From Rhizoctonia solani (lineage: Eukaryota; Basidiomycota; Agaricomycetes; Cantharellales; Ceratobasidiaceae): a stretch of 64,000 nucleotides of DNA. A program made the position numbers and the translations under genes. Below the pieces are notes generated by a model. The model was given only the letters and a program-made list of their open reading frames with translations, had not been told where the DNA came from and made no database searches. Below are positions 20,609 through 41,051 of this stretch, piece by piece; position 1 is the first letter of the stretch, and each line of letters starts with the position of its first letter. Location of the stretch: the NCBI RefSeq assembly GCF_016906535.1, contig NC_057377.1, positions 124,001-188,000 on the forward strand. The letters run 5' to 3'.

Positions 20609-21053
20609 TGTCATGACCTTAATTGGCATGACATAATTTTCTACTATTTTCTACCTTTTTTCTGAGACAGTTTCCTTTCTTGGTATATATTTATGACTCA
20701 TCAAGATCACGTGACATATTTGATATATGATGTGAAATTGTAATTGACTCATTGTTTTGTAATGTTGTTTTTGATGTGGCTTCTCTCTTGTATATAAGCT
20801 AGGTCAAGTTGCCGCTAGAACAGCAAGACTTGACCTCTTTGTCAATTCATCCTAAGTCTTACCTACCCATTGCCCTGCTCCCTTGTTGAGCACAGTGCAC
20901 TTTACTTAAGCATCACTCACCAGGCCTTTGTTGCCCTCTACCTTAAACCACACCCCCTGGGCCCTTGTCGCCCCTCTTGTTTCATAGTCCATTGGTGATA
21001 GGGCCACGGACTCTAAACCTACTTGTATCATAGGTCCGAGCTTAGTCGTGACA
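20609..21053 (+). repeat. E3 5' LTR with promoter and RNA-start hairpin
   Basis: TGTCATGACC...GTCGTGACA. It contains ATCACGTGA (about 20703-20711) and a TATATAA box at 20791-20797. Behind the box, AGGTCAAGT (20801-20809) can pair with ACTTGACCT (20828-20836). AAGACTTGACCT at 20825-20836 is 34 nt after the TATA box and is exactly complementary to 21056-21067, just inside the element. Confidence 0.95.
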
Positions 21054-21055
21054 CT

Positions 21056-21067
21056 AGGTCAAGTCTT
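21056..21067 (+). promoter_or_regulatory. E3 self-priming primer-binding sequence
   Basis: AGGTCAAGTCTT starts two bases after the 5' LTR and is the exact reverse complement of 20825-20836 in the LTR. That is the layout of Tf1-type elements, where the RNA 5' end folds back and primes minus-strand synthesis. A tRNA-type site starting TGG is absent. Confidence 0.7.
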
Positions 21068-21397
21068 TCTTGTATTCCTGTCGACAAACAAGACCTACGC
21101 TTGGATAAGCACCAAAGCTTGAAAAGTCATCACATTGTAGCCCCTGTGTAATAGTCAAAGACAGGAATACGAGTGGCAGTAAAGCCGCGGGATAGCCCCT
21201 TGCTAGCAATTGTCCGCATACCAGGGTGTCCGCACCTTTAGCCATACGCTGTTAGTCAGCCAACCTTCTGCTTACTAAAAACCTGATTGTTAATCACGCT
21301 TGTACACAGCTGTTGATATCAATATAAGGATAGTCTAACGCTAGTAGGAAAGCAAACAGTTAGTATTTTAGCGCTATAAACCCGTTTGTCTATCTGA

Positions 21398-21925
21398 TCA
21401 AGTACCAATTTGCATCGGGAACGCATCCTAGTGTTCGATTTTCTAGACCTTGTCCTCTTCATCATCTTCTGGCCTTATTCTGTCGTCACCCAATACCTCT
21501 ATCTCAAAAAAACCCTCAACAATATTGACCATATATTAGTGGGTCGTATCAACAATCTTGAAGAACACATTGCTTGCATTGAAGAACCAGGGCTACTCCA
21601 AACTATTGCCCACATTAAACATCACAAGTCTTTTGCCAAGCGCCTCAACAATATCTACAAGGCCGATCTTCAAGAACAAAAAAATCTGATCTCAAACCTC
21701 AAAGCTCATAACCGCGACCTAGCTCTTACCATCGAAGAGCAAGAGAGGCTTATTGAGGAAAAAGACAGATTACTAGTCGAGAAAGAACTGGAATTGGACA
21801 ATTTCCACTGTTCCATCCAGGACATTACCCAAGACAGAAAGGGTTGGATTCACCGCTACAAGGAATATGAATTCTTTGCAGTCTCATATGATAACGCCTG
21901 GTTTGGGCGAGATGGGAGAAATTAG
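21398..21925 (+). other. ATG-less open frame upstream of E3 gag
   Basis: The frame opens after a TGA at 21395-21397 and stays open for about 175 codons, overlapping gag by 59 nt in another phase. It contains no ATG at all; the first possible near-cognate start is TTG at 21410. Conceptually it encodes a hydrophobic segment (FLDLVLFIIFWPYSVV) and then a charged, heptad-like coiled coil (LTIEEQERLIEEKDRLLVEK). It could be the former N-terminal part of gag cut off by a frameshift and start loss, a non-AUG-initiated product, or chance. Function unknown. Confidence 0.45.
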
Positions 21926-23438
21926 TCTAGTAACTCCCCAAATTCCATCAGGATGGTCTGCCCCATCCTCTCGAACCCATACTCCTGCTCCTGCGGCTGT
22001 GCCGCCTCATGTATACTCCCCTATGTCGTTTGATCAGATGTCAGATTGTGAACTTCTGGATATGGTAGCTCAAAATATGATTATCCTAAAAAAAGAATTT
22101 TCACAGTTGCAAGGGGCTTACAAAGCCCAAGGAGATCAATTAGCCCTACTAAGGGCAGAATTGGAGGAACATTGTGATCAGTCGCAAAACCAACATATTT
22201 TTTACTCCAATCAGATCCAAGGAGCCGCTGCGTCCATCCAAGCTGTGCAAGATCAGCTAAATCACATGTCCCTCACTCGTTCCACAGCTCCACCTCCACC
22301 TCCTCCTCCTGTCACTGCCACTGCCACCAATCCTCCACCTGCTCCCATCTCTTTGAATTCTGATTTAAAATTTGCCAAGCCTAATAAGTTCAATGGTAAA
22401 AAAGAAGACGCCCTTAATTTTATCATTGCTTGTCAGGCTTATATCAGGGCAAAAGGAGCAAATCGTTCTCATGAGGAAAAAATTCTGTGGGTTACATCAT
22501 ACTTTGAGGGAGCAGCCGAGGATTGGGTTCGCCCATACAAGGAAAGGAAGGTGTTCAGGGGAGAGGCAGTGCCCCTTTTGGAAGACGTCGATACATTTTG
22601 GGCTGAATTCACTAAGCATTATGTGGATACAAATTGGGATGAAAAATATCGACAGAAATGGAACAACTTGCGTCAGAAGGGTTCGGTCCAGGAATACACT
22701 CGTGAATTCCAACAATACTCCGTCTCTCTGGGCTATAGTGATGAGACCTTGCGCGATAAATATTATGATGGCCTTAAGAATGAAATCAAGGATATAATGC
22801 TATCGACTATGTTCCAATGGCGTTGTGCCACAGCCCAACAAGTATATGACAAGGCAGAGGAAATAGCGAACCATATTGAATCTACTCGTTTATCTCATCC
22901 ATCTGTTCCTTCCTCTACTACTCGGGTCCCTTCCAACAGTACCTCCCAATCCACTCCCATTTCCAGCCCTACTCGCACTCGCCTCAATGTGGGAGATAAT
23001 GTTTATATGATTGACCCCACCACTTGCCGCGCTAAAAAGGGCGCCATCACTTCAATTGTACGCACAACCTCCGGTAATATGCCGAACGTTAGGTGGAATG
23101 GCGAATCTAAAGACACAATGATTCCGTTCCCCTCCCTCAAAAAAGACAAGCGTCCTGCCGCGGCTGCCCCTGTCAAACCCATCATTGCCCCTACTCCGGT
23201 CCTAGCCTCAAGTTCCAAAGGTCCAGGCCCCATGGATCTCGATGGAAGAGGGTTTGCCAATCTTACTTGCCATGTATGCGGTGGTAAGGGTCATTTTGCG
23301 CGCAATTGCCCATCTAAGCCCATGTCAGGCCATGTGGCCAACGTAGAATGGTCTTGGGAAAGGCCTAAAGAGGAGAATCGGATTGAAGTAGTGTCTGACG
23401 AGGAGGAGTTGGGAAAAGGGAAAGCCAAGGCCAATTAA
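21867..23438 (+). CDS. gag: E3 Gag with CCHC zinc knuckle
   Basis: ATG 21867, 523 residues. The N-terminal third is Pro/Ser-rich with a coiled-coil-like helix (LQGAYKAQGDQLALLRAELE) and a poly-Pro stretch. The capsid-like region starts near residue 165 (KFAKPNKFNGKKEDALNFII) and includes FEGAAEDWVRPY and VQEYTREFQQYSVSLGYSDE. A basic linker with a tudor-like strand (VGDNVYMIDPTTCRAKKGAI) precedes the knuckle CHVCGGKGHFARNC near residue 470. The frame ends at TAA 23436-23438. GGGAAAA at 23411-23417 lies in phase for a -1 shift into pol. The frame itself is intact. Confidence 0.92.
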   Translation: MNSLQSHMITPGLGEMGEISLVTPQIPSGWSAPSSRTHTPAPAAVPPHVYSPMSFDQMSDCELLDMVAQNMIILKKEFSQLQGAYKAQGDQLALLRAELEEHCDQSQNQHIFYSNQIQGAAASIQAVQDQLNHMSLTRSTAPPPPPPPVTATATNPPPAPISLNSDLKFAKPNKFNGKKEDALNFIIACQAYIRAKGANRSHEEKILWVTSYFEGAAEDWVRPYKERKVFRGEAVPLLEDVDTFWAEFTKHYVDTNWDEKYRQKWNNLRQKGSVQEYTREFQQYSVSLGYSDETLRDKYYDGLKNEIKDIMLSTMFQWRCATAQQVYDKAEEIANHIESTRLSHPSVPSSTTRVPSNSTSQSTPISSPTRTRLNVGDNVYMIDPTTCRAKKGAITSIVRTTSGNMPNVRWNGESKDTMIPFPSLKKDKRPAAAAPVKPIIAPTPVLASSSKGPGPMDLDGRGFANLTCHVCGGKGHFARNCPSKPMSGHVANVEWSWERPKEENRIEVVSDEEELGKGKAKAN

Positions 23439-26400
23439 GGAGTAAGGCACTTGGCTGTATGTTAGCGGATTTGCATCATGTAAACGACAACCTAGAAATA
23501 TTCTCTCTATGTAACTCATCTCAAATATATGCGTCATTTACTGCAAACCCGTGTGATACTCCTAAATCCCAAAAATCAAGTTTTCTGGCTAAACCTTTCC
23601 AAGGAAAAGCCATGATCGACTCTGGAGCAATGTCCTGTTTTATCCACCCTCTTTTAGTAGAAACCTACCAACTCCCAACTTATATACACCCAATTCCTAA
23701 AAAACTGCGCGTTATTGATGGCCGAGAAATTGATTCTGGCCAGATTACTCACTTTACTTGGTTCAAATGTACTATTGGCAACCACACCGAAGAACTAGAA
23801 TGCCACATTTCCAATATTGGCAATCATCAATTAGTTTTAGGAATGTTGTGGTTAAAAAAGCACAACCCCCAAATCTTGTGGGAAAAACATACACTTGTTT
23901 TCAATTCCTTATATTGTTCCAACAATTGCCTAGCCACGCCTGCTGTTTTAGAACTTAATGCAGTAGAAGAAATCCCTACCCCTTATCAAGAATTTGCTAG
24001 AGTATTTTCGGAGGAAGAATTGTCAAAGTTACCACCTCACCGTCCTTATGATATCGCCATTGAATTACTCCCTGATGCAAAACCCCAACATGGTCCCATT
24101 TATAGCCTAGGTCCAAGGGAGGATGCGGAACTCAGGGAAACTCTCAAAAAGCAACTCAAGGCAGGACTGATTCGACCCTCAAAGTCGCCTATGGCTTCTC
24201 CAATCTTATTCGTTAAGAAAAAGAATGGTAAATTGCGCATGTGCGTGGACTACCGGCGCTTAAATAGCATGACCAAGAAAAATGTGTACCCGTTACCCCT
24301 GCCACAGAATCTTATTGAGAAACTACAAGGCGCAAAAATCTTTAGTAAATTTGACCTTAAGGCAGGATACAATTTAGTCAGAATCAGAGAAGGTGACGAG
24401 TGGAAAACAGCTTTCAAGACAAAGTACGGATTATTTGAATACTTGGTTATGCCCTTTGGATTAACAAATGCACCGGCGGTCTTTCAAGACATGATGAATG
24501 AAATATTCCAAGACCTTCTGGACGTCTATGTCATTATCTACTTAGACAACATTTTAGTATTTTCTTTGAACAAAAAAGATCACGAGGCCCACGTGCAAGA
24601 AGTACTGAAGAGACTACAGGACAATAATCTCTTCTGTAACATTGAAAAATGTCATTTCCACGTCAAGAAAATTGATTACCTAGGGTTCATCATATCGGAG
24701 TCTGGCATAGAAGTTGACCAGTCAAAAGTCACGGATGCAATGAATTGGTCGACACCTAGGAATGTCAAAAATATTCAGGAATTCTTAGGATTTGTGAATT
24801 TTTATAGACGATTCATCCCCAACTTTGGCAATATGGCGCGACCTTTGTACAATCTACTCAAGAAAGACAACCCTTGGAAGTGGGAATCAACAGAACAGCA
24901 CTCTTTTGACAGTCTCAAAAAATGTCTTACGTCAGCACCTTTACTATTACAACCGGATACCACAAGACAATTTTATGTGGAATGCAATGCGTCGGATTAC
25001 GCCACTGGAGCTATATTATCCCAACACAATTCAGAAGGGAAATTAGCACCGGTAGCCTATCTATCCAAATCCTTATCCCCAGCTGAAAAAAATTACAACA
25101 TTTTTGACAAGGAATTGCTAGCCGTTATTAGGGCATTCAAGGAATGGCGTCATTTGTTAGAAGGGTCAGAGTTACCGGTCCAAGTTCTGACGGATCATAA
25201 GAACTTGGAGTACTTCTCCACATCACAGTCCCTAAATAAACAACAAATCAGATGGGCAAACTTCTTAGTCGATTATAATTTCCAAATCATCTATAGGCCT
25301 GGGGCACAGAATAAGAAGGCGGACATACTTTCACGGCGCTATGATCTGGTACCCCTTGAAGGGGGGGTAGAGAACCAGGTTCTCCTAAAACCGGAACTTT
25401 TTATTTCATCAATTACTCCAGATCAGGAAATCAATGACTTAATTGGTGAAGCAATCTACAAGGACGACCGCCTTAAGGAAATTTTACATAAGCTTCAGAA
25501 CAAAGAAAAGGTCACAGATTGGGAGTTAAAAGAAGGACTGTTATGGCATCAGGGAAAGATCTTTGTACCTAGAGACAACACCATTAGGAACCTTGTTCTA
25601 GAATCTAGGCATGATGCGTTAGCCGCAGGACACCCAGGACAAGCAAGAACACTAGAACTTGTTTCAAGGAGTTACTATTGGCCGTCCATGAAAAAATTTG
25701 TCAATTCTTACGTCAGCCACTGCGAAACCTGCATTAGATCAAAACCCACAAACCAAGTACCTACAGGTCTACTAAAACCCTTACAAATTCCGGAACAACC
25801 TTGGGAAGACATAGCATATGACATGATCGTAGGATTACCAACCTCAGAAGGCTTCGACGCGATCCTAACAGTGATTGATTGATTTTCAAAAATGGTCCAT
25901 TTCATCCCTACTCAGTCCACAGCATCCGCCATTGATATTGCCAACTTATTCATCACCTATATATGGAAATTACATGGTCTCCCCAGAAGCACGGTTTCAG
26001 ACAGAGGCCCCACATTTAATGCCAAGTTTATTCAACATTTGTACAAAAGGCTGGATATCAAACCAACCTACTCTACGGCCTACCATCCACAAACGGATGG
26101 ACAAACAGAACAAATACAAAGGGAAGCTGAAATCTTCATCCGCATGTTTGGAAACCACCAACAATCTGATTGGGTATCACTACTACCCCTGGCTGAGTTT
26201 GCCCTTAATAACCTGAAACAAACCTCTACGGGCAAATCTCCATTTCAGATCTGTTATGGGTTGAATCCTTGTTTCTCTGTAGGACAAAAATCAGACGAAT
26301 CAGTTCCCAACGCAGATGAGCATGCGGAATTCCTAGAAAAAGGCTACGATGAAGTCAAGGCCACATTGTCATTATCACAGGAAAGAATGAAACACTTCTA

Positions 26401-26878
26401 TGATCAACGCCATAGGGAAGAAGAAGAAATTCAAGTAGGGGACAAGGTCTGGTTGAGTCACCAAAATATAACCACCAACAGACCATCCATCAAACTTAGT
26501 CATAAGAAACTAGGCCCCTATCTTGTGATTGAAAAAATTGGATCACACGCATATAAATTGCAACTACCTCACACAATGCGCATACACCCCGTTTTTCATA
26601 TTAATCTTCTAACAAAATTCCATCCCAACCCTCATGGACGAGATCCTCCTCAACCTGCACCTATCATCACAGAAGAAGGAGAAGAGGAGTATGAAGTAGA
26701 GAAAATCCTGGATAGCAAATGGAAGGGACAAGGAAAGGCAAGGAAGTTATGGTATCTAGTGAAATGGAAAGGATACGATGAGGGAAGCAACTCCTGGGAA
26801 CCGGTTGACAATGTGGGAAATGCACAAGAAGCTCTAGAAGAATTTCACAAGGAACACCCTGACGCAGTTGGAGCTTGA
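23399..26878 (+). pseudogene. pol: E3 Pol: protease, RT, RNase H, integrase, chromodomain, with one in-frame TGA
   Basis: Open in the -1 frame from 23399 (first ATG 23459) to 26878 with one TGA at 25880-25882, inside the integrase motif VID-[R]-FSKMVHF, where relatives have Arg. Domains: protease AMIDSGAMSCFIHP; RT MCVDYRRLNSMTKKNVYPL and YLDN (second Asp is Asn at 24548-24550); RNase H YVECNASDYATGAILSQ (Asn for the first catalytic Asp at 24986-24988); integrase zinc region HPGQARTLELVSRSYYWP...CETC; core YDMIVGLP, VSDRGPTFN and YHPQTDGQTEQ; chromodomain EYEVEKILDSKW...YLVKWKGYDEGSNSWEP. It would produce the replication and integration enzymes of E3, but the TGA and both Asp losses argue against activity. 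Confidence 0.93.
23411..23417 (+). promoter_or_regulatory. GGGAAAA, probable -1 ribosomal frameshift site of E3
   Basis: Gag codons read TTG GGA AAA GGG, so the heptamer is G GGA AAA in the zero frame. The pol frame is -1 relative to gag and is open from 23399, overlapping gag by 40 nt around the site. E1 has the same TTGGGAAAAG at the end of its gag. Confidence 0.65.
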
Positions 26879-26889
26879 AGAGGGGGTAA
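26876..26889 (+). other. E3 polypurine tract
   Basis: GAAGAGGGGGTAA lies immediately before the 3' LTR start (TGTCATGACC) and overlaps the pol stop codon. Confidence 0.85.
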
Positions 26890-27334
26890 TGTCATGACCT
26901 TAATCAGCATGACATAATTTTCTACTATTTTCTACCTTTTTTCTGAGACAGTTTCCTTTCTTGGTATATATTTATGACTCATCAAGATCACGTGACATAT
27001 TTGATATATGATGTGAAATTGTAATTGACTCATTGTTTTGTAATGTTGTTTTTGATGTGGCTTCTCTCTTGTATATAAGCTAGGTCAAGTTGCCGCTAGA
27101 ACAGCAAGACTTGACCTCTTTGTCAATTCATCCTAAGTCTTACCTACCCATTGCCCTGCTCCCTTGTTGAGCACAGTGCACTTTACTTAAGCATCACTCA
27201 CCAGGCCTTTGTTGCCCTCTACCTTAAACCACACCCCCTGGGCCCTTGTCGCCCCTCTTGTTTCATAGTCCATTGGTGATAGGGCCACGGACTCTAAACC
27301 TACTTGTATCATAGGTCCAAGCTTAGTTGTGACA
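26890..27334 (+). repeat. E3 3' LTR
   Basis: 445 bp, the same length as the 5' LTR. Differences noticed: CA versus TG near the start, and CA and TG where the 5' copy keeps CG near the end. All are CpG-type transitions. Confidence 0.96.
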
Positions 27335-27413: not shown

Positions 27414-28936
27414 TGTTAAGAGTCGTGTAAGTACAGGAGTAAGAAAGAATTACTATATACAAAATGTATATGGGAATAACTAAGAACTAGTATTAAGAAT
27501 CAGAATATATGCACAGAATATATGCACAATATAGGCTAGGTTATCAGGAATAACAACTCCTAACAAATAGTCTAGCAACTATGAAGTGCAGGTGGTTGGT
27601 TATGTATAGTACCTTAGACTAATGTTACTTAAGCCTAAGTGACTAAGGGTATGTATACTTAAGGTCTCTAGGATAGTACCTTAAGTAAGAGGGTTACCTG
27701 ACTAATGTACAGGATTTATAGGATTTGCCTAATAAGTATAGGACTTATATATGCTTAAGTAAGACTTAAGACTTATGGGGTTTACCTAAAATATATCTAG
27801 GATTTATGAGATATTGTAGATAAAGCTATCTACAATATAAGGGGTATGGTGGATTGAAACACTATCACTCAATCACAACAATCCTTACAGTATCGTCGCA
27901 CTATACTCAATGTTGAACTCAACAACTGTGACAGTCAAGGGGCACAGGGTCGCAGTAAGTACACTAATAGGTTACCCTGTGTCTGTTGGGACTGGCCTAT
28001 GGTCTTAGTGCGCCGAATAACCTCCTATGCTATTTACAGTGAGTCAATCACTAAAGTAAATGCGCAGATAAGCTGTTAAAGGCTTGTGTGTATATGTCAA
28101 TATATAAGAGTGGATAAATGGATGCATTAGAAGCGTCTTCACAGGGTCCTTTTATACCCTGAGAAGGCGCACAAACAAGTATATACATGATTGATACCAA
28201 GAGGGGGTACAGGAGGTACAGGTGGCAACTGAAACACTTGAGGGAGCCGATACTTTGGTACATAGTAAACAAACAACAGATCCTAATATTTGCCCCAAGG
28301 CAATGTTTGCCCCAAGGCATTATTTACCTGTGTGGGTCCTTAGATGTCCCAAGGCTAAGTGTTTCATCCTTGGAGTAAACAGTCCCAAAGGTAGGATACC
28401 TCTGCATTGGGTACTTACAGTAAATGGGGCATAACTCAGCCAAATGTTGTCCGTTTTGGGAGTTTGACCCAGCGTTCTGGAGCGCACAAACACGCGCACC
28501 TAAGCGCAAGCGATTCGGCAGTGTGGGATGCCCGGGTGATGGAGAAAAGGCGCATTTAGTGCGTCGGCGCTTAAGGGCTGATTAAGCGCCGGAGCACTTG
28601 CCTATGCGACAGGGGGGACCCTGAATATTTCTGTGTGTAGCCACAAGATAGAATCTTGAATAATAAATACTACAAACAAGAGAAATATTACTTGTTACTG
28701 TTTATCTACTCAGCTGAATTTATATATATTTAAATGAGTGAGAAAACAGCATATATGCAAAAGGCATCGCATATTAAGGGCATTCCTGAGCTCTGTAGGT
28801 TTTGTAAAGGTCACTATTGGATAGAGGGACCTTGAGAACCTTAGTTCGCATCTTTATCTCATTTATTTACTGTGAGATTACTAGTGTAATTAATAAAATA
28901 AGTACAGATTAAAGAAGAAATGTCATATCCATAACA
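27414..28936 (-). repeat. E2 3' LTR
   Basis: 1523 bp, plus-strand ends TGTTAAGAGT...CCATAACA. It is unusually long for a fungal Ty3 element. It includes the CAGGTGGTTGGTTATG box shared with the 7351-8657 LTR, and GGCGCTTAAGGGCTGATTAAGC-type inverted words. Confidence 0.97.
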
Positions 28937-28950
28937 TATCCCCCCCAATC
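28937..28950 (-). other. E2 polypurine tract
   Basis: The minus strand reads AGATTGGGGGGGATA immediately before the 3' LTR (TGTTATGGAT), the expected plus-strand primer. Confidence 0.85.
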
Positions 28951-29387
28951 TGGACTTATCCTATCAAGAGATGGCTTCCTAATTAAAGGTTTGATGCTAA
29001 TTGATTATACCCCTTGAAATTGGAATTTAAATTCCTTGACTTTATTGCTAAGTCTTAGAGTCGGAGCCATGGGCGCTTAAGGCTTAGTCACCCGCTCTGA
29101 GTCTTCAGCTGGTGCAAGGTATTTACTTGTTGTAATTATTGCGAGGTCAAATCCGAGGCTTTTGACTTAGTTAAAAATGCTATCGATATCTATCGAATCG
29201 TGGCTATCGATTGATACTAAGTGTGGTGGGACGTTCACACGGATAAGGGTTGAATTCTTAGCGACGATTATTTAGACGAGTCAAAAACAATCGGATTTGC
29301 GAGTAGAGTATTAATGGTCGCAGAATACAGGAAAGAGGTGCTAAAAGCACGGATTGGAAGTTACAAGGCTGAAGGAGACACTGACTA
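28951..29387 (-). other. E2 3' untranslated region
   Basis: 437 bp between the end of the accessory gene and the polypurine tract. Short near-repeats of ATCGATATCTATCGAATCG-like words occur around 29175-29215. No coding frame is supported. Confidence 0.5.
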
Positions 29388-30732
29388 CTAGTTAGAGGCT
29401 ACAGGACGAGTTTGAATGACATGGTTAGCGTTGATTTCGATTCCTCCGCCAATGTCGAAGTCCATATCCCCTTCGGTCCTTAAGTCGCGGGCGCGAACCT
29501 CGTGCCAATGGTCTTCCCATGAAAACGGAGGCGTGTGCTGCTGCGGTACGGAGGGCCACTCAGGAGGTCCCAGGTCGGCAACGGGCTGAGGTTCTCCTGG
29601 CCATTCCCAAACAGATTCGACAAAGTCGGCGCTGAAGGACGGTGGTGCGGGATCGGCGTCCTGTACAACGGCCACTTGCGCAAGTTGCTTGGTAAGAGCG
29701 CTGACGTCGAGCTCGTAGTTGCTGCTGTTGGGGGGTGCAGGGTACTCGCCTGCATTGCTTGCGGCGTGCAGGGGCTCAAACTCCGGCGCAGTGAATGAAT
29801 TGCTGTATTGCTGTCCCAGCCAGTGGATTCCGTGGGACTCGGGGATGACAGGAGGCTCGAGTCCCCAAGCGGCGTAGTCAAAGATTTGTTCCGCAAATTC
29901 TTCCAACGCAGGCGGCGGAGAAACTTCAGTGGGCGGCGTAAGCGGGCCCAAGGACTCGTCGTCGGCGTTGTAGCCATTGATAGGGAATCCTGTGACACAT
30001 ATCCTTGTATATTTAGTGCACATTATTAATTCTATGCTAATTCTGCTTACCCGCGTCTGATAAATCGTCTTCAGAGCAATCAATGACAGGGTGCCCGTGT
30101 AGACGACACCAGAAGCGGTGTGCTGATACGCAAGCAGGGGAACCACGAATGTACCCAACATGAGCCAGGTTGCTGTAATGGTTCTGCTTGGTAGCATTAA
30201 TAATGATGGAAAGCGCGTTGAGACAGATGACATAGAAATTGTTGTGGTGGACTTGGCGCTGTAATTCATGGAAGGTGTCAAAGGGGAAGTGGTAGAGATC
30301 GCGAGTGAAGCAGATAGGACAAGGGATGTATGGGAAGTTGATCTCTTCTAGCTTAGAGGCATAATCATAATTGCCCCAAGGATCATGGCGATTCCATCCT
30401 GTGGGTTGAACAGCATCCCCAAAGACCTGGAGAGCATGGTAGTAGGCCCCATGGAGAGCATGGGCAAGGTCAACACCTAGGAACCACTGGGGAGGGTGAT
30501 CATCAGCCATGAGGAACACCTCAACATCTGGCATAGCATGAATGCGCCGCTCCAGAGGGTCAGGATGGTTTTCTGAGTAGGGTGAAGGGTGATCATTGTG
30601 GCGGTTAGCATAAATGTAGTATAAGTCGCGGACATGATTAGCCTCAATAATACCTGTCTCAGGGGAGAGAGGCACATCATTGCGATAGGTGGTGAAGATA
30701 GGGAAGCAGTAGAAGCTTTGAGCAAAAGACAT
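29388..30732 (-). CDS. E2 accessory gene, two exons, unknown function
   Basis: Start ATG 30732. Exon 1 is 30732-30051; a 61-nt GT-AG intron (29990-30050, donor GTAAGC, acceptor CACAG) joins codon phase correctly to exon 2, 29989-29388. The spliced product would be 427 residues. The N-terminal part is His/Tyr/Asp-rich with a CPICFTRDLYHFPFDTFHEL segment and conserved-looking Cys/His residues. The exon 2 part is Pro/Glu/Asp-rich and acidic, without hydrophobic segments. I recognise no family. It is not visibly envelope-like: no signal peptide or transmembrane helix is apparent. It lies in sense orientation about 200 bp after gag-pol and before the 3' LTR, with exon 2 more GC-rich than the rest of E2, which hints at capture of a host gene. 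An open frame continues 5' of ATG 30732 to 31044, overlapping the end of pol. Confidence 0.6.
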
Positions 30733-30935
30733 ATTGATAGAGTACTGAGTAGACGTATTCAGTGTGAGTGGGATGGCAATGGAGAGAGTTGAGTGATAGC
30801 ATTTATACAAAATCCATCCTCCATAAGATAGGTTTGACTTAGAGATTTGAATGTTGAGTATGTTGTTATTTCCTATCTTGGAGGATATGACCGGTTTAGT
30901 TACACCTGTGGTACATGGAAGAAGCCATGTGGAGC

Positions 30936-33900
30936 TTAGAACTCCTTCTTCTTCCTGTGATTGGGATGGATAGTGGAGCCAGAGGTTCGCTTCCATTCTT
31001 TGATTACTTCTGGAGCATTCCTTAATTCTTTCTCTGTCCTCCATCTATCATGTTCTGAGCTGTACCCAAGCCAACGGATTTTGTACTGCCTAATTCTCTT
31101 GTTGCCTTTCTTTATTGTCCTTTCTTCTACTATCCTTTCCACCTCATATTCAGGCATCTGTTGGAAGTCTTCTCTAGGTATATTCTGAGTGGGTCGGCTT
31201 CCAAACTCTGGGGGTGATGCCTTGTAAGATTCCAAGTGGGCTATGTTAATGATTGGGTGTATGCGATAGCTAGCAGGTAATCTTATCCTATATGCTACTG
31301 GTGATATGCTTTCCATAACTTCAAATGGTCCTTCATAACGCATATTTAGCTTATTCCCTTTCCCTGACTGATGTTTGAGTAAGTTTAAGGAATGGGGATT
31401 GATTAAGACTAAATCTCCTGGCTCAAAGGTAACATGTGTCTTGTCAGAATTATAGTATTTCTGTTGATAATTCTGAGCTACTTTGAGAGCGTCCTTAGCT
31501 AATGATCGTGCTAATTCCATGGATTCCTTGAATTCTTCAGCTGTTTGACTTTCTTGGGCTGGTCTTGGAATGTTCTCAGAAGTGAGAGCCAGTAAGTCGG
31601 CTGATGTTAGAGGCTGAAATCCGCGGAGTAGGAAGGCTGGTGTCTGTTGTGTGGATGTATGCACACTTGTATTGTATGAGTGCGCAAATCCTGATAGAAG
31701 CTTACTCCAATTGTCCTTAGCTGGGTTAGTGAATACTCTAATAGCCACTTCTGTAGTTTGATTAAGTATCTCTGTTTGCCCATCACTCTGAGGATGATGT
31801 GCAGTGGTGAGTGCTCGCCTAATTCCTAACATACTAACTAAGTGACCCCAAAAGGCTCCTGTCCATCTAGCATCTCTATCAGTGATTACTTGCCGAGGTA
31901 AACCATAGTGACACCATATGTGATCATGGAACAGTTGCGCTGTTTGTACTTCATCTATCTGAGTAGTACATGGGATGAAATGTCCATACTTAGTTAGTTT
32001 GTCCACAATAACTAGGATAGCGTTGTAGTTGTTACTTGGTGGAAGATCCATGATGAAGTCCATTGATACTACTTCAAAGGGTTGCTGTGGAATAGGTAAA
32101 GGTTGAAGGAATCCTCTGGGTCCATGCCGTCGATGTCCTGCTTTCTGACAGATATCACAAGTGTGTACATACTTCTGAATGCTTCTAGCCATCTTAGGCC
32201 AATAGTAAACAGAAGCAATTCGATGATATGTCTTAGCATAACCAGCATGTGCTCCTTGATTGAGGTTATCATGATTTTCCTTCAAAATATCTACTTGTAG
32301 ATCCCTAGGTACACATAGCCGATACTTTTCCTGGGAATCTATAAAGTAGATCAATCCATTATCTCCTATCTGGTATTGATGGAAGGGTGGATTGAGTGGA
32401 TTGTGGTGCGACTTAAACTCTTCCATCACTTGCTTAAAATGGGAGTCCTTCTTGTATGCTTCTATGAACCTTGTGATTTCTTCTGAGTTTATTGATATTT
32501 CCACAGAGTATGAGGTAGTTGTTTGATAAGATATAGCTTCTGCCGGTGTGGGTATCCACTTCTTGATGGGCTTCTGGCTATTTCCAATTTTGTAACTCTG
32601 GGTGAATGCGCTTGCAACTCTAAGAAGTTTCTCTTCAAAACGTTCATTTATCTCCTTGTAGAGGTTTCTTAATGGGTCTTCCTCCATATTGAGCTTGAGT
32701 GGAGTCGATTGATCTGCCAGAGGGCTGGTATGATATGGGGTTCTCCTCCTAAGTCTTGAGATAGGATCTGCATTGTCATGTACTCTTCCTGCGCGGTGCA
32801 CAATCTGCATTCCTGGGTAGGCTGAGAATACTAAGCCCCATGTCATGAGTCTTCTGTTGACATTATTGTAAGTCTTGCTCCAGGTGAGAGCGGCGTGATC
32901 TGTAATAGCAACAAATTCAGCTCCTTCCAAGTATACCTGAAATTTCACAAGTGCTTCCTTGAGGGCTAATGCTTTGCGCTCTGTTGGGGAGTAGTTTCTT
33001 TCTGCTTCTTTTAGAATCCTTGACCAATAAGCAATGACTTGCTCCACTTGTACAGTTGTTTCTTCAAAGTCTTGCTTATCCCATGTATCCCCCCCAGTCA
33101 CGTCGTCTCTCTGCTTGGAAGCAGGAATTGTCATTCTGGGAACTGGGTTTCCTTTATCATATTCCCCCTTTAGGTACTTGTATGCCTTTGTCCCTTTTAA
33201 GTCTTTTATCTTGATTAATTGGACTTGCTGTAATATTCCTCCAAGGCCATAGTCGCATGCATCTGTATATAATCTGTAAGGTTTTCCAATAATAGGATAA
33301 GCCATTACTGGAGCAGATGCAAGGGCCTCTTTGGCAAGTTCAAACGCTTGTTGTTCCTTTTCCTCCCAAGACCAAGCTGTTCCTTTCTTGAGAAGCTTAA
33401 ACAAAGGCGCTACAATCCATGAGTAGAAGGGAATATAGCTAGAGAAATAAGTCATCATCCCTAGGAAAGTCTGTAAGGTAGGAACATTTTTAGGGGGTTC
33501 CAACTCTAAGATAGCATCAACTTTTTCCTTGTGGGTTGATAGACCTAATCTTGATACCTTCTGTCCTAGCAATAGTAGTGATTGGTATCCAATGTGACAT
33601 TTCTTTGGAGATAGGGTGATTTCAGCTTCTTCAATAGCTCCTAAGACTTGATCTAAGTGATTGCAATGGTCTTCAAACTTAACACTATAGATCACTATGT
33701 CATCAATATATACTAGGGCAAATTGCCATAGAAATCTTGAAAGTATCCTATTCATGACACGCTGGAACTCTGCTGGTCCATTCCTATATCCAAAGAGTAG
33801 TTTGGTAGGTTGCCAATGGCCGTTGTGACATCTGAAAGCAAGTTTCTCTCTGTCTTCTTCTTTGATGGTTAGCTGAGTGAAACCAGCTAGCGCATCTAAG

Positions 33901-36900
33901 GTAGTAAGCCATTGAGCTCCTTCCAAGGCATGCAAGATGTCAGTTTGTTTTGGTAAGGGATACTCATCTGGTACAGCTACTTCATTGAGACGTCTATAAT
34001 CTACACATAATCTGGGTTTACTGTTGCGATAGACTACTATGACAGGAAATCCCCAAGCACTCTTGGATGGCTCAATGACTCCAAGTTTAAGCCATTCCTC
34101 AATCTGCTTGTCAATGACTTCTCTTTTAGCTGGAGAAGCATGGTAAGGGGTTAGAGATATTTCTTTAGTTCCTGGCCTTAGTCTAATTTCCAGTTGAGTG
34201 TTATGAGTACCAAGTCTACCATCTAATCCAAAGGCTAACTCATGCTTGCGCAAAACCTTTTCTAGTTTAGTCCTTTGATTAGGGGTGAGATGTTCTGAGA
34301 AATTAACTTCTTGAAGAAATCTATCTGAAGGGACAGGTTCTGGGTCAGGTACTTCAGCAGTCTTAGGTCCTCCTTCAGGTGACTTCATTAATTCCTCTTC
34401 TTGCACAGTAGGCTTTTCTTCAGCTTTCCTCTGCACCATGGCTTGTACTAAGGTAGCATACTTGATAATGCTGTCTTTTTCTTCCTTAGTAATGTCCTTT
34501 TCCTTTGCAAGGTATTCGTTGGGATCATGCATATATCCAAGAATCTCTCCTCCTTGCAATCTTAAAGGATGTTCTGATAGGTTAGAAACCTGAATCTTAG
34601 GATTGTTCCTATCTATCAGGCAGTCTGTTATTGCAAACAGATGTTCTTCTTGTCGATGGGAATTGAAAGATCTGTCCATAAAACCAGAGGCTTGACCTTC
34701 CTTCCATATTGTCTTGACTTTGATGAGCTTGATGGTATGCGCTGGGATAGTAACTGTCTCATAGACTTTTACTTTGACAGTATTGGGAGGTAATTTCCTA
34801 TGTTGGAGTCGCTTCTTGTAGGCTTTCTTAGAGATCTTGATTTTCTCAGAATTCTTGATGAATCCTTGCGCAACTTCAACCATAAAGGTATTACCTTGTT
34901 GGTCAATTCTTGGGCTGGAATCTGATTCTTCCACAGGAATAGAACGTCCTGTATCCCCAAAAACTATCCTTGTTCCTTCTCCATTCCTAACTAATGACAG
35001 TTGATACTGAGATGCAAAGTCTGTTCCTAAGATAAAAGGTGTGTTCATGTTAGGAACTATGTAGGCTTCTACAATCATTTTAACTAATCCTTGTTCAGTA
35101 TCAAAGATGATAGGAAGGGAAATATACTGTGATAAGCTACTATTCCCAGTAACTTGAATTAACTTGAGTTTTTGTCCAATGCGCACTCTAGGTGATGGAT
35201 CTAGAGTTTTAAGTATTGACTCATTAATGAGAGTGATCTCTGATCCTGAGTCAAAGGTGATGCGCTTCTTAGGTCCATTATTTGTCTGAAGCCAACCTTT
35301 GATGATGGTGGCTTTAGATCCAAAGAAGGCAGTTCCTGGTGGTCTTGACATTAATCGCTTGAGAGTGATTTCTTCTCCATTCTTGGCAGTAGCTGTATGA
35401 CTACTAGCCATTTTCAGTTTCTTATTAAGGCTCTTCCTAGTGGGGAGCTTGGGTTGTACATATCCAGAGAATACAGATGAATCAGATTCCTTACTGCCCT
35501 GGTCAGCAGAGTTAGTACCCTGGCTGACAGTGGTCCCCTCCAGACCATGCTGTTCCTCCTGGGATCCAGAGCTGGGCTTAGCGCTGGAGGTAGAGACAGC
35601 TAATGACTGAAGGGGCTTATGAAAATCCTGCTCTTCCTCAGAAACAGACTCTTCTCCTTCAGTGTCATATTCTGTTTCATCAAGGTAGGCTTCATCACAG
35701 AGATCTTCATAAGCTTCCTGAGCTTCCCATTCATCATCATCTGCTTGTGCCATATGTGATCGCACAAATCTGGAGTTCTTCTTGGCATGCTTACAGTCTC
35801 TATCCCAGTGCATCATACTTCCACAGTGTCTACAAGGTCTAGCTTTCTTGTCTTTAGGAGTTTTACCTTTAGATACTGTAGAGTCATCCTTAGGGTATTT
35901 TGGTGGAGGATTATTTTGATGCCATCCTACTGGTTTAGATCCTGCTAAGTGTGAGCGCGCACTTGGCCTAGAGTGCCTGTTTCCTTCTAGTCTCTTGAGA
36001 GTAGATTGCATCTGGTGTAGTTGACGCTGTATGTCAGAGTTATGAGAAGAATCTTTTCCCAAAAGGTCCTCCTCATGCCATGCAATCTTGTCAAGGAAGT
36101 CTTCCCAAGTGACTATTCTTGAGGTGTCTATATGCGTGGTCCAGGACTTAGGAGCACCATTCATGATTTCAAAGATTAATTCAGAGTCAGTCCAGTCACT
36201 GACAATAGTGAGAGCTTCCATCTTCCTGATGACATAGTCTTCTGGAGTCTCTTCTGAATGATCTTTATCCCTGAACCTGATGCGCATGGCTTCATTCTTG
36301 CTTCTGTTCAGGAAGGTCCTATTCATGAAGTGGATAGTGATAGCTTGCCTAAGTGCTGGCCAGTCTTCAGTTATAGTTCGCCTATAGTCCTTATCTAATG
36401 CATTGAACCATCTAAGAGCTCTTCCTGTGAACCTGAGAGGAATCTGCTGTCCAAGCTGAATTCTAGTGTAGCTACTATACTCAGCTATGTTGTTGATGGA
36501 TGTCATCCAGCGCGACAGCTTCTTAGTGTCTCCATCCCACTCTGGGATTATGTCAGGTTTCAGCTTAGTATCAAAATGTACAGGAGCTGGATTGAAAGGT
36601 CTAGCTCTAGCTGCATTTGCTTGAGCATATGGTTCATTTCCTGGATCTTCTGGGTCGTTGGGAGGTCCTCCTCCATTTCTTCTAGGTGGATTGTTCCTTC
36701 TTCTACCAGAGTTATCAAAATCTCCCTCATTGCTATCATATGGTGGGTCATTTCCTCCTCCTCCTTCAGCTAAGGGAGCTAGTCTATCTCTAAGTTGATC
36801 CCTAGGAGGTGGATCATTAAACAGCTCACTAAACCTTCTAGAGGAGACCATACGTCCTATAATATGAGGAGGTAACCTAGTCCTGTCAATGGGTGGTGCT

Positions 36901-39410
36901 GGAGGTACTTGAAGTTGTGGGACAGGTGCTAGTAGAGGGGCTAAGAAGTTTCCTCTCCTACTCATATTAGCTTCTTCCCTAGTAACTGGTGCTGGCTGCT
37001 CCTGTAAGTAAGGTAAATTGGTATGGATACTTAGAGGAGTTCTTCTTGATTCAGGAGAGGAGGTAGGTCTCCTGTGGGCACTTTCAGCTAGTCTAGAGGA
37101 GCGCTCTTCTGGGATTGTAGATACTCTGGTAAAGGATTCAGCTGGTATAGCTGGTCTTCCTGAGGATCGCCGATTTGCTCCCAAGGAAGATCTGCGATTA
37201 ATGAAGTCAGCATGTGGAGGTGGATCTCTAAGAGGAATACTTGGGCCTGCAAGGCTAACTCTTCTAGCAGCGTTGCTTAAAGGTGGATTATAAGGTATAT
37301 TCCTAACATGATCCTCTTCTACTTGGCTCCTAATCCTGGGAGTAGACTGTGCTACTGGAATTTGCATGGTATGAGTAGCAGCACTTGAGACAGAAGTAAT
37401 AGAATCAGCAGGAGTAGCTGGGGCTATTAGTTCTGGGGCTACTTGGTCTCTTCCAGTTGATGATTCAGAAGAACTTAAGCCATCTATACTTCCATCTGAA
37501 AGATTGTTGATGTAGTCTTCAAGGGCTTGTATATTGAAAGGAGGTATAGCTGAAGGTTGTGCAATAGGAACACTTGCATTACCTCTAGGTGATGATGGTA
37601 AGGTTTCTTCTGAACTAGTGGAAGGGACTATGGTGGGCCTAGGAGTAGGTGGTCTAGGTCCTATAGATCTAGCAGCTTCTCTCCTAAGTCTCTCAGTCCT
37701 CTCTAAGGTAGATGGGACTTGTAATGTTACATGGGGTGACTCTTCTGGTATTCTTCCTAAGGGTATAGATCTAGAGGAAGAAGTAGCAATAGAGCTAGGA
37801 GGTGGTGGTAAAGGTTCTGAGGGAATAAGTGTGGTTCCATTATCAGGTCCTAAATACCTTGGTTGCATAGTAACAGTAAGAGAGGCTTTGGATGAATGAA
37901 GACTACTAGGAGGTTGTCCTGGAGGAGTGCTACTGGAGGTGTGCAGGGTTACAGTTGGAGGAGAAACTTGAGGATCTGGAAGTAAAGGACTAGCAATAGT
38001 AACTTGACTAGTGGGTTTGATAAGACTCCTTAGTAAGTTTTCTTGAGCCGCCTCCTGTGGAGTGACAGAAGAGGCTCTAGAACTTTTGGGCACTAAAAGG
38101 GTCATATCTTGCTTGAGTTGTAGGGTCCTATCCCTAAGGTGTTCTTGTCCAGGTTCTACCTCACTGAGATGTCCTGCAGAGATGACTGGGGAAGGTGGTC
38201 CAGTCTGAAGTTGTCTACCAAGGATCTCATATAGCTTCTGAATGAAACGCTCCATCTGATCCCTATAAGTGACAGCAGCTACCTCAAAGGAATGAGAGGT
38301 AAATAAACAGTCATGTTCTGGCCATTCAGGAATGGGCAATAGCTCCTCCATGTCATAGACGCTATGAACAGTTCTCTTGATTAGTTTATTCAGGTCTATG
38401 TGTAACTTACCATATTCAGGCCAATGGTTGATTTCTTGAGCAGGAACTAGCTTGGTAGTAATGCGACATGTAGGTCTAAAGGTTACTACAGTATCTAGTA
38501 GTTTGAAGTAGTGAGAAGCCCATTGCTCACAAGAAGGTGAGGGGTAGCGATTCTCATGGGCTGGAGGTATCTCCACATGATAGAATACTCTTCCTAGCTG
38601 CCTGTAGACTTTCCTAAAGCTATTAGCTTGAGGGTTCTTCCTACACCAAGAGGTCATTTGGGTACAGTCAGGCTGATAGTTGAATTCTCCTGGAGATTCT
38701 TCATTTAAAGGGTATAAGGTAGTGGAAGGAGAATAGGGTAGGTACTTCTGGATAGCTGGGTCATTAGTAAAAGACCTATCATTAGGATCCAGTAAGGCAG
38801 CTTGAGTTTCCCTATGCTTAGATATGTGGGCTTCAGAAGTCTTTCCTTTAGATCTCTTAAGCTCATGAGAGTTCATAGGCTCAGAGGGCTGAGGTTTACT
38901 AGAGGAAGGTTCCAACATCTCTATATCAGGGAGTCCAAATACAGGTATCATCCTCTGGAAGGTAGCTGAGCTAGCCTTATGACCAAAAGGTGAAGGCTTC
39001 CTTATAGAAGAACTTGGCTTAGCTAGCTTGTTTGCTTCCTGAATAGCCTCATATTCCAAAGGAGACAATCTTGGAGAGTGTCTGGATGATGACTTATGAG
39101 AGTGGGGTGATATTCTTCTTGAGCTACTAGGTCCTGCTTGAGGGTCTTCCAAGGCTGGCATGGAAGCATGTGGCTTGATGGGTGATTCATAGGGTTTGAT
39201 AGGTTGGGGAATCACTAGCTCCTCAGGAGAGGATTGCTCAATAGAGTACCTAGTAGGTCCAAAAGGGTTGCTGGGACTATCTGTAGGTATGCTGTCTCTA
39301 GGAAGCACAGAGCTTCTAGGGGTACTATGTCTAGGCATACCTTCTCTTGAAAGTCTTGTGTCCCAAGGGGTCCTATTAGAGGATGCAGGTCTACTTGATC
39401 TTCTAGACAT
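30936..39410 (-). CDS. gag-pol: E2 Gag-Pol polyprotein, 2824 residues, intact
   Basis: ATG 39410, single frame to 30936. Residues 1-900 are a Ser/Pro-rich, low-complexity extension not typical of Ty3 Gag. A capsid-like domain follows (about 940-1120; IPEWDGDTKKLSRWM, LRFTGRALRWFNAL), then the knuckle CRHCGSMMHWDRDC near 1195. Protease: FDSGSEITLINE near 1385. RT: LCVDYRRLNEVAVPDEYPLP and YIDD (codons near 33699-33707, about residue 1902). RNase H: YTDACDYGLGGIL near 2052. Integrase: HAGYAKTYHRI...CDIC near 2395, MDFIMDLPP, ITDRDARWTG and HHPQSDGQTEILN. Chromodomain: EYEVERIVEERT...YKIRWLGYSSEHDRW near 2755. All catalytic acids that I can see are present. Gag and Pol are fused, so no frameshift is needed. 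It is probably functional. Confidence 0.95.
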   Translation of the reverse strand: MSRRSSRPASSNRTPWDTRLSREGMPRHSTPRSSVLPRDSIPTDSPSNPFGPTRYSIEQSSPEELVIPQPIKPYESPIKPHASMPALEDPQAGPSSSRRISPHSHKSSSRHSPRLSPLEYEAIQEANKLAKPSSSIRKPSPFGHKASSATFQRMIPVFGLPDIEMLEPSSSKPQPSEPMNSHELKRSKGKTSEAHISKHRETQAALLDPNDRSFTNDPAIQKYLPYSPSTTLYPLNEESPGEFNYQPDCTQMTSWCRKNPQANSFRKVYRQLGRVFYHVEIPPAHENRYPSPSCEQWASHYFKLLDTVVTFRPTCRITTKLVPAQEINHWPEYGKLHIDLNKLIKRTVHSVYDMEELLPIPEWPEHDCLFTSHSFEVAAVTYRDQMERFIQKLYEILGRQLQTGPPSPVISAGHLSEVEPGQEHLRDRTLQLKQDMTLLVPKSSRASSVTPQEAAQENLLRSLIKPTSQVTIASPLLPDPQVSPPTVTLHTSSSTPPGQPPSSLHSSKASLTVTMQPRYLGPDNGTTLIPSEPLPPPPSSIATSSSRSIPLGRIPEESPHVTLQVPSTLERTERLRREAARSIGPRPPTPRPTIVPSTSSEETLPSSPRGNASVPIAQPSAIPPFNIQALEDYINNLSDGSIDGLSSSESSTGRDQVAPELIAPATPADSITSVSSAATHTMQIPVAQSTPRIRSQVEEDHVRNIPYNPPLSNAARRVSLAGPSIPLRDPPPHADFINRRSSLGANRRSSGRPAIPAESFTRVSTIPEERSSRLAESAHRRPTSSPESRRTPLSIHTNLPYLQEQPAPVTREEANMSRRGNFLAPLLAPVPQLQVPPAPPIDRTRLPPHIIGRMVSSRRFSELFNDPPPRDQLRDRLAPLAEGGGGNDPPYDSNEGDFDNSGRRRNNPPRRNGGGPPNDPEDPGNEPYAQANAARARPFNPAPVHFDTKLKPDIIPEWDGDTKKLSRWMTSINNIAEYSSYTRIQLGQQIPLRFTGRALRWFNALDKDYRRTITEDWPALRQAITIHFMNRTFLNRSKNEAMRIRFRDKDHSEETPEDYVIRKMEALTIVSDWTDSELIFEIMNGAPKSWTTHIDTSRIVTWEDFLDKIAWHEEDLLGKDSSHNSDIQRQLHQMQSTLKRLEGNRHSRPSARSHLAGSKPVGWHQNNPPPKYPKDDSTVSKGKTPKDKKARPCRHCGSMMHWDRDCKHAKKNSRFVRSHMAQADDDEWEAQEAYEDLCDEAYLDETEYDTEGEESVSEEEQDFHKPLQSLAVSTSSAKPSSGSQEEQHGLEGTTVSQGTNSADQGSKESDSSVFSGYVQPKLPTRKSLNKKLKMASSHTATAKNGEEITLKRLMSRPPGTAFFGSKATIIKGWLQTNNGPKKRITFDSGSEITLINESILKTLDPSPRVRIGQKLKLIQVTGNSSLSQYISLPIIFDTEQGLVKMIVEAYIVPNMNTPFILGTDFASQYQLSLVRNGEGTRIVFGDTGRSIPVEESDSSPRIDQQGNTFMVEVAQGFIKNSEKIKISKKAYKKRLQHRKLPPNTVKVKVYETVTIPAHTIKLIKVKTIWKEGQASGFMDRSFNSHRQEEHLFAITDCLIDRNNPKIQVSNLSEHPLRLQGGEILGYMHDPNEYLAKEKDITKEEKDSIIKYATLVQAMVQRKAEEKPTVQEEELMKSPEGGPKTAEVPDPEPVPSDRFLQEVNFSEHLTPNQRTKLEKVLRKHELAFGLDGRLGTHNTQLEIRLRPGTKEISLTPYHASPAKREVIDKQIEEWLKLGVIEPSKSAWGFPVIVVYRNSKPRLCVDYRRLNEVAVPDEYPLPKQTDILHALEGAQWLTTLDALAGFTQLTIKEEDREKLAFRCHNGHWQPTKLLFGYRNGPAEFQRVMNRILSRFLWQFALVYIDDIVIYSVKFEDHCNHLDQVLGAIEEAEITLSPKKCHIGYQSLLLLGQKVSRLGLSTHKEKVDAILELEPPKNVPTLQTFLGMMTYFSSYIPFYSWIVAPLFKLLKKGTAWSWEEKEQQAFELAKEALASAPVMAYPIIGKPYRLYTDACDYGLGGILQQVQLIKIKDLKGTKAYKYLKGEYDKGNPVPRMTIPASKQRDDVTGGDTWDKQDFEETTVQVEQVIAYWSRILKEAERNYSPTERKALALKEALVKFQVYLEGAEFVAITDHAALTWSKTYNNVNRRLMTWGLVFSAYPGMQIVHRAGRVHDNADPISRLRRRTPYHTSPLADQSTPLKLNMEEDPLRNLYKEINERFEEKLLRVASAFTQSYKIGNSQKPIKKWIPTPAEAISYQTTTSYSVEISINSEEITRFIEAYKKDSHFKQVMEEFKSHHNPLNPPFHQYQIGDNGLIYFIDSQEKYRLCVPRDLQVDILKENHDNLNQGAHAGYAKTYHRIASVYYWPKMARSIQKYVHTCDICQKAGHRRHGPRGFLQPLPIPQQPFEVVSMDFIMDLPPSNNYNAILVIVDKLTKYGHFIPCTTQIDEVQTAQLFHDHIWCHYGLPRQVITDRDARWTGAFWGHLVSMLGIRRALTTAHHPQSDGQTEILNQTTEVAIRVFTNPAKDNWSKLLSGFAHSYNTSVHTSTQQTPAFLLRGFQPLTSADLLALTSENIPRPAQESQTAEEFKESMELARSLAKDALKVAQNYQQKYYNSDKTHVTFEPGDLVLINPHSLNLLKHQSGKGNKLNMRYEGPFEVMESISPVAYRIRLPASYRIHPIINIAHLESYKASPPEFGSRPTQNIPREDFQQMPEYEVERIVEERTIKKGNKRIRQYKIRWLGYSSEHDRWRTEKELRNAPEVIKEWKRTSGSTIHPNHRKKKEF

Positions 39411-39510: not shown

Positions 39511-39528
39511 CCCTGCGGTGGTCACCAA
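39511..39528 (-). promoter_or_regulatory. E2 primer-binding site, tRNA type
   Basis: Directly inside the 5' LTR the minus strand reads T then TGGTGACCACCGCAGGG. It starts with TGG as expected for pairing with a tRNA CCA end, unlike E1, E3 and E4. I do not assign the tRNA. Confidence 0.65.
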
Positions 39529-41051
39529 TGTTAAGAGTCGTGTAAGTACAGGAGTAAGAAAGAATTACTATATACAAAATGTATATGGGAATAACTAAGA
39601 ACTAGTATTAAGAATCAGAATATATGCACAGAATATATGCACAATATAGGCTAGGTTATCAGGAATAACAACTCCTAACAAATAGTCTAGCAACTATGAA
39701 GTGCAGGTGGTTGGTTATGTATAGTACCTTAGACTAATGTTACTTAAGCCTAAGTGACTAAGGGTATGTATACTTAAGGTCTCTAGGATAGTACCTTAAG
39801 TAAGAGGGTTACCTGACTAATGTACAGGATTTATAGGATTTGCCTAATAAGTATAGGACTTATATATGCTTAAGTAAGACTTAAGACTTATGGGGTTTAC
39901 CTAAAATATATCTAGGATTTATGAGATATTGTAGATAAAGCTATCTACAATATAAGGGGTATGGTGGATTGAAACACTATCACTCAATCACAACAATCCT
40001 TACAGTATCGTCGCACTATACTCAATGTTGAACTCAACAACTGTGACAGTCAAGGGGCACAGGGTCGCAGTAAGTACACTAATAGGTTACCCTGTGTCTG
40101 TTGGGACTGGCCTATGGTCTTAGTGCGCCGAATAACCTCCTATGCTATTTACAGTGAGTCAATCACTAAAGTAAATGCGCAGATAAGCTGTTAAAGGCTT
40201 GTGTGTATATGTCAATATATAAGAGTGGATAAATGGATGCATTAGAAGCGTCTTCACAGGGTCCTTTTATACCCTGAGAAGGCGCACAAACAAGTATATA
40301 CATGATTGATACCAAGAGGGGGTACAGGAGGTACAGGTGGCAACTGAAACACTTGAGGGAGCCGATACTTTGGTACATAGTAAACAAACAACAGATCCTA
40401 ATATTTGCCCCAAGGCAATGTTTGCCCCAAGGCATTATTTACCTGTGTGGGTCCTTAGATGTCCCAAGGCTAAGTGTTTCATCCTTGGAGTAAACAGTCC
40501 CAAAGGTAGGATACCTCTGCATTGGGTACTTACAGTAAATGGGGCATAACTCAGCCAAATGTTGTCCGTTTTGGGAGTTTGACCCAGCGTTCTGGAGCGC
40601 ACAAACACGCGCACCTAAGCGCAAGCGATTCGGCAGTGTGGGATGCCCGGGTGATGGAGAAAAGGCGCATTTAGTGCGTCGGCGCTTAAGGGCTGATTAA
40701 GCGCCGGAGCACTTGCCTATGCGACAGGGGGGACCCTGAATATTTCTGTGTGTAGCCACAAGATAGAATCTTGAATAATAAATACTACAAACAAGAGAAA
40801 TATTACTTGTTACTGTTTATCTACTCAGCTGAATTTATATATATTTAAATGAGTGAGAAAACAGCATATATGCAAAAGGCATCGCATATTAAGGGCATTC
40901 CTGAGCTCTGTAGGTTTTGTAAAGGTCACTATTGGATAGAGGGACCTTGAAAACCTTAGTTCGCATCTTTATCTCATTTATTTACTGTGAGATTACTAGT
41001 GTAATTAATAAAATAAGTACAGATTAAAGAAGAAATGTCATATCCATAACA
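39529..41051 (-). repeat. E2 5' LTR
   Basis: 1523 bp, virtually identical to the 3' LTR. The leader between it and ATG 39410 is only about 118 bp. Confidence 0.97.

Follow-up and report, generated by a model that had tools for sequence, protein, structure and literature searches.

The 64,000-nucleotide stretch of Rhizoctonia solani DNA analysed here (the window; contig NC_057377.1, positions 124,001 to 188,000) contains a Ty3-type retrotransposon on its minus strand, running from position 41051 to 27414, with a two-exon accessory gene that follows the pol stop (30936) and precedes the 3' long terminal repeat (LTR). The spliced product of this gene has 427 amino acids. The LTRs differ at 1 of 1523 sites, and a CAAAG target duplication lies outside both of them. 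The element has the make-up of a Ty3 chromodomain element, with the order reverse transcriptase, RNase H and integrase, a C-terminal chromodomain, LTRs, a primer-binding site, a polypurine tract and the target duplication. A first-pass annotation, made from the letters of the window alone, had described the gene as lying in an element with near-identical LTRs and intact Gag-Pol; our gene model gives the same coordinates, intron position, phase (1) and length (427 residues), the LTRs are 99.93% identical, and gag-pol is an open frame of 2824 amino acids. The main feature of the locus was not visible to that annotation and is a two-allele cassette: as comparison of genomic copies shows, the accessory gene exists as two deeply diverged alleles, A (the type in the window) and B, on otherwise near-identical elements.

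We searched the genome itself (40.7 Mb, 16 contigs) with the exon-1 frame and obtained 36 matches, all located in or beside these elements; some of these are fragments belonging to the same copy. We fetched 28 stretches, of which 26 were aligned over the gene together with the window (27 copies); L035 and L036 were omitted as broken up. Introns of 59-63 nt with GT-AG borders are retained in 26 of the 27 copies, the sole exception being L025. The spliced length is exactly 427 amino acids in 14 copies, 426 in L029, 415 in L032 and 395 in the frameshifted L013, and ten copies are broken. The eight intact type A copies have introns of 60, 61 or 62 nt, yet once the intron is removed all have the same reading. 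The protein P0005 (RhiXN_03526) is identical to the translation of L021 over 427 amino acids. Because multiple copies keep the splice sites and the length of 427 residues despite varying introns, the gene must be more than a chance frame. We consider it virtually certain that the gene is real and, on comparative grounds, very likely that its intron is spliced, in line with the intron-bearing sense gene of the first-pass annotation.

Computed from medians, the ratio of non-synonymous to synonymous substitution rates (dN/dS) in exon 1 comes to 0.15 for type A (28 pairs) and 0.05 for type B (15 pairs); the values for exon 2 are 0.23 (A) and 0.27 (B), with L013 excluded from this comparison of intact copies. 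The differences between intact copies concentrate at third codon positions of the spliced frame. These values indicate that the gene is under purifying selection in intact copies. For the intron, identity reaches 0.98 among A copies and 0.92 among B copies, but only 0.52 between the types.

The divergence between the two alleles is concentrated in the gene and its immediate surroundings. Along the 3' part of the element, compared in 7 A and 6 B copies, A and B are on average as similar to each other as copies of one type are, with identities of 0.96-0.995 per 100 nt for pol and 0.96-0.99 for the LTR; across the gene, A-B identity is only 0.54-0.83. Differences between copies in pol and the LTR amount to 3-4%. 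The full-length intact types share approximately 66-72% of their amino acids. In 9 A and 10 B copies there are 314 columns with a fixed A/B difference, all between positions -36 and +1398 relative to the ATG; with L015, which has a broken LTR, removed, there are 315 over the same span. When the type labels were shuffled, the p value was 0.0005 for the spacer, exons, intron and 3' untranslated region (UTR), compared with 0.74 in pol and 0.36 in the LTR. Measured against the window over 6 kb of gag-pol, copies of type B are no more distant than other A copies (95-99%). For a 1380-nt gag piece, the identities are 0.979 (A-A), 0.978 (B-B) and 0.976 (A-B) in 4 A and 3 B copies.

The trees of the gene and the backbone are in conflict. 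The gene tree has a single A/B split at 100/100 support, whereas the type label changes 7 times on the pol tree and 6 times on the LTR tree (9 A and 9 B copies). A clade of type A is rejected by the approximately unbiased test with p values of 0.0016 (pol) and 3.3e-5 (LTR), and still rejected with L015 removed (2.2e-6 and 7.2e-5). Of the 136 informative backbone sites in 8 A and 6 B copies, 115 are variable in each of the two groups, and the same is true of 13 of the 18 transversions. At 232 diagnostic columns, seven copies held out of their definition (one of which, L020, is a near-duplicate of L019) carry at most four letters of the other type. The near-purity of these seven copies argues that the gene moves as a block, and exchange of the whole cassette between backbones is highly likely from these patterns.

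Both alleles are well represented. The 22 classed copies comprise 11 A and 11 B, and both types are found in young copies, with LTR differences of 1/1523 in the window, 2/1523 in L011 (A) and 2/1522 in L022 (B). A and B both occur among the proteins tagged RhiXN, RhiTH, RHS01 and RHS03. The frequency of third-position transversions in exon 1 is 0.016 among A copies, 0.040 among B copies and 0.17 between the types. The A-B value is 0.22 in exon 2 and 0.007 in pol, where the values are 0.007-0.008 overall. The within-type values for exon 1 exceed those for pol, and the gene thus harbours old variation within each type as well.

The accessory gene is an integral part of the element lineage. We searched the genome with the last 399 residues of pol and scored 104 of 901 candidates. 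Twenty-one matches with 92% identity or more extend to the query's end, and every one of them is followed by the gene, so that, in answer to a check proposed in the first-pass annotation, the other copies neither lack nor scramble it. A related family, C, is present in three copies with a pol of 72% identity, a 3' LTR that is not alike and a version of the gene that is approximately 40% identical; leaving aside pieces of decayed copies, the next pol scored beyond family C is 36% identical. Since the gene is common to elements with only 72% pol identity, it is an old part of them. In two relics, L017 (G000:C13:844768) and L018 (G000:C11:1245450), an LTR lies directly before a decayed gene with no pol match between them. 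The two loci resemble a duplicated stretch.

The protein probably consists of a folded N-terminal domain and an acidic, disordered tail. AlphaFold2, run on the homolog P0001 with 14 sequences, gave a mean pLDDT of 49, with blocks of 73-90 over residues ~71-180 and low values in the tail, where three short helices are predicted. The part encoded by exon 1 has a pI of 5.7, and the part encoded by exon 2 a pI of 4.1 with 14% proline; the intron lies close to the point where the domain gives way to the tail. In an alignment of 22 homologs, two leucines in a predicted helix, L326 and L330, are invariant, and a C-terminal W-E-W-P ... S-W-E-D-H-W stretch is kept in most, but not all. Transmembrane segments usually reach a hydropathy of approximately 1.6; the best 19-residue stretches here stay below that, at 0.98 (A), 1.25 (B) and 1.47 (C), and the first residues are polar by eye. 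The first-pass annotation had likewise seen no envelope features and recognised no family, and searches of Pfam, the PDB and viral folds yielded no match of weight. Named homologs in the protein searches come solely from Rhizoctonia and one Ceratobasidium, next to four ENA entries without a name. Within reach of the searches of the genome and of proteins no donor gene was found, and among the papers listed in literature searches none deals with this gene.

The gene probably has its own promoter, as judged from the conservation of a candidate box. On the sense strand, TATAAA occurs just once between the LTRs, 75 nt upstream of the accessory ATG, which makes an internal promoter likely. The motif TATAAAT is kept in 21 of the 22 A and B copies shown (L028 differs); in family C, where the surrounding spacer is hardly alignable, it reads TATAAAT in one and CATAAAT in two of the three copies. 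No GTRAG donor was found in the leader or in the first 310 nt of gag. The earlier proposal of a separate transcript, as with retroviral subgenomic RNAs, is thus favoured in part, in the form of a promoter within the element. The cassette border at -36 falls between the TATA box and the ATG, so the exchanged block would correspond roughly to one transcription unit.

In one copy, L025 (G000:C16, gene at 167555), the intron is missing precisely from one splice site to the other. Both sites carry GCAG, and deletion is therefore an alternative to reverse transcription of spliced RNA. The pol of L025 is nearest an A copy and its gene nearest a B copy, so that it looks like a recombinant itself; exon 2 of this copy carries a frameshift, and the stretch fetched contains only an incomplete 5' LTR. 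We regard L025 as a candidate case of packaged spliced RNA. The introns of types B and C (60 and 63 nt, for example in L022 and L032) have no in-frame stops, except in the broken copy L030, and retention would merely lengthen the protein (to 447 and 436 amino acids); exitron-like retention is a possibility in these types.

Table 1. Features of the element in the window (all on the minus strand) and the evidence for each
Feature	Position	Strand	Evidence
5' LTR (1523 bp)	39529..41051	-	self-BLAST, 99.93% to 27414-28936
Primer-binding-site position TTGGTGACCACCGCAGGG, directly after 5' LTR	39511..39528	-	motif recurrence in other 5' ends
gag-pol, one frame of 2824 aa: reverse transcriptase, RNase H, integrase, SH3, chromodomain	30936..39410	-	open reading frame, Pfam
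TATAAA, candidate internal promoter, 75 nt before accessory ATG	30802..30807	-	conservation across copies
Exchangeable cassette: all 314 fixed A/B columns	29334..30768	-	9 A and 10 B copies
Accessory exon 1 (682 nt)	30051..30732	-	gene model, copy alignment, dN/dS
GT-AG intron, 61 nt, phase 1, GTAAGC...CACAG	29990..30050	-	gene model, copy alignment
Accessory exon 2 (602 nt with stop): acidic tail, conserved short motifs	29388..29989	-	gene model, homolog alignment
Polypurine tract ATTGGGGGGGATA, abutting 3' LTR	28937..28949	-	
3' LTR	27414..28936	-	self-BLAST partner of 39529..41051

The motif TTGGTGACCACCGCAGGG is present in seven of the eight other 5' ends fetched; the eighth (L012) gave no LTR match. 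The window contains a second Ty3-like element on the plus strand (20609-27334), with terminal repeats that are 99.1% identical and a pol frame that ends at a stop at 25880-25882, the remainder being open downstream. Both Ty3 elements are flanked by a pair of direct repeats (16654-17228 and 42889-43463, 97.7% identical), perhaps the LTRs of an outer element with nested insertions. At 658-2048, a simple repeat makes long TP- and WE-rich frames on opposite strands.

We propose that the element carries a genuine third gene whose two alleles are exchanged as a block and whose product acts in trans, with a specificity directed at the host or at recognition of its own kind; we give this reading as a whole an even chance. 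Transcription from its own TATA promoter would supply a short spliced mRNA for the protein and leave the full-length genomic RNA free to remain unspliced. The most likely means of block exchange would be template switching when two RNAs are packaged together, or conversion among copies in the genome, with crossovers in the conserved spacer and 3' UTR. Almost no allele-linked change was seen in the backbone, and the partner of the protein is therefore probably a host factor or the protein itself, and not Gag, Pol or the LTR. The pattern suggests a gene that determines an element's relations with its host or with other elements of its kind, although we put forward the host-facing or self-recognition role itself only tentatively. 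Two alleles may persist because the rare one escapes a host block, or a self-limiting effect, that is aimed at the common one. A more specific version, an idiomorph-like recognition locus in which two ancient alleles are held by balancing selection among freely recombining elements and serve element-host defence or element-element compatibility, seems rather unlikely at present.

Several observations weigh against this proposal. Transitions make up 118 of the 136 informative backbone sites in the 14 copies, and many of them perhaps reflect repeated C-to-T decay of repeats. The middle of gag-pol was compared solely by percent identity to the window, and the 1380-nt gag piece has 3 fixed A/B differences in its 4 A and 3 B copies, so that an allele-linked partner in gag is possible. 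At the diagnostic sites, the relics L017 and L018 carry 147 A, 39 B and 35 other letters, which may mean that they are mixtures, belong to a third type or align poorly. Divergence of the gene goes along with that of pol in family C, where exchange is not seen. A truncated pol piece (C2:85255) has no match to the gene, and neither do the surroundings of two gag-pol pieces (C3:244146 and C12:1355943) whose 3' ends were not looked at. TATAAAT arose in 217 of 5000 simulated spacers; the box alone is weak, and its weight rests on conservation. The cases for splicing and for the promoter are comparative, no fold or function can be assigned to the protein from the searches, and persistence of two alleles can be neutral.

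This last point leads to a serious rival, in which two related families merged by recombination everywhere except in a gene that had become too diverged, and both versions drift without selection. We hold this neutral origin to be quite possible, if somewhat short of even. The A-B divergence (~66-72% amino-acid identity) by itself hinders exchange within the gene, there is no clear internal A/B mosaic among the seven held-out copies, and the dominance of transitions at backbone sites fits as well. However, no second backbone was seen: among the scored candidates the range of pol identity between 72% and 92% is empty, apart from a piece of the broken copy L031 at 88%. The types are also even in number, both have young copies and both occur under the four locus-tag prefixes, and within-type diversity in exon 1 exceeds that in pol, transversions included. 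Two functional alternatives both appear unlikely. A regulator like CERV of Cer1, letting the intron-containing genomic RNA leave the nucleus unspliced, should co-vary with its binding site, but hardly any linked change was seen outside the cassette and the exon 1 part is not basic (pI 5.7); a binding site inside the cassette could accommodate the former. A self-encoded factor for copy-number control or exclusion with allele specificity, like Ty1 p22 in effect, would agree with internal initiation and with the divergent module on a shared backbone of Ty1/Ty1' (PMC7055915). The p22 protein is described as derived from gag and targeting Gag, whereas here the gene is separate and downstream of pol, and gag is nearly without allele-linked change.

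The remaining alternatives fare worse. Host capture was suggested in the first-pass annotation from the GC content, and exon 2 is indeed GC-richer than gag-pol (58.3% versus 42.9%); GC at third codon positions is likewise higher in the gene (0.52-0.62 versus 0.35), and the intron and the gene's own TATA box are host-gene-like. A recently captured passenger is nevertheless very improbable, because no donor outside Rhizoctonia and Ceratobasidium came up in the searches, all 36 genomic matches lie in or beside the elements, the gene is shared with family C and its protein is under selection; this evidence bears on recent, not old, capture. An envelope-like protein would fit the site between pol and the 3' LTR, and swapping of retroviral env is known (PMC10536682), but the hydropathy maxima in all three types and the acidic C terminus of low model confidence make it highly improbable. 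That the gene is unspliced, with two frames joined by a frameshift or read-through, is hardly credible: the type A introns of 60, 61 and 62 nt would put exon 2 in three frames, A-B intron identity is only 0.52, and the intron is lost exactly in L025. Read-through is conceivable in types B and C, with their stop-free introns in all but L030.

If the two alleles are kept by selection, the gene would mark a point of recognition between element and host or between elements. One genome holds a natural experiment, with two versions of a gene on interchangeable backbones, both in recent insertions. The intron also distinguishes genomic RNA from message, so that any packaging of spliced RNA can be recognised in genomic copies. 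The reason why retrotransposons retain additional genes is an open question (for plants, see PMC7264820).

We compared the gene with known systems, by analogy. Foamy viruses express a downstream accessory gene from an internal promoter. The arrangement here would be similar, with TATAAA only as a candidate promoter, but foamy viruses are retroviruses with env. In the retroviral exchange of env, too, a gene between pol and the 3' LTR is exchanged as a block (PMC10536682), although here there are no envelope features. Sense additional open reading frames in this position are a known kind in plant LTR elements; those of Bagy2 and Athila (aORF-3S) share position and orientation, and that of Bagy2 is also spliced, but some have transmembrane features and are called env-like (PMC7264820), features of a strength not found here. 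The nearest precedents are CERV of Cer1, a Ty3-like element of Caenorhabditis elegans, and gag of Ty1/Ty1'. By description, Cer1 also has no stop between gag and pol, and the CERV protein is described as having no homology outside its own genus. In contrast, the cerv mRNA is spliced from genomic RNA, whereas the gene in the window contains a small intron of its own and is likely to have a separate promoter, and an A/B cassette does not feature in the parts of the Cer1 account consulted. In Saccharomyces Ty1/Ty1', one diverged module sits on a recombining backbone, and module and pol cluster differently (PMC7055915). That module is the gag of a Ty1/copia-type element, while the module in the window is a third gene apart from gag, and the parts of gag that were compared differ little between A and B; as an analogy, Ty1/Ty1' is the best evolutionary precedent for the cassette.
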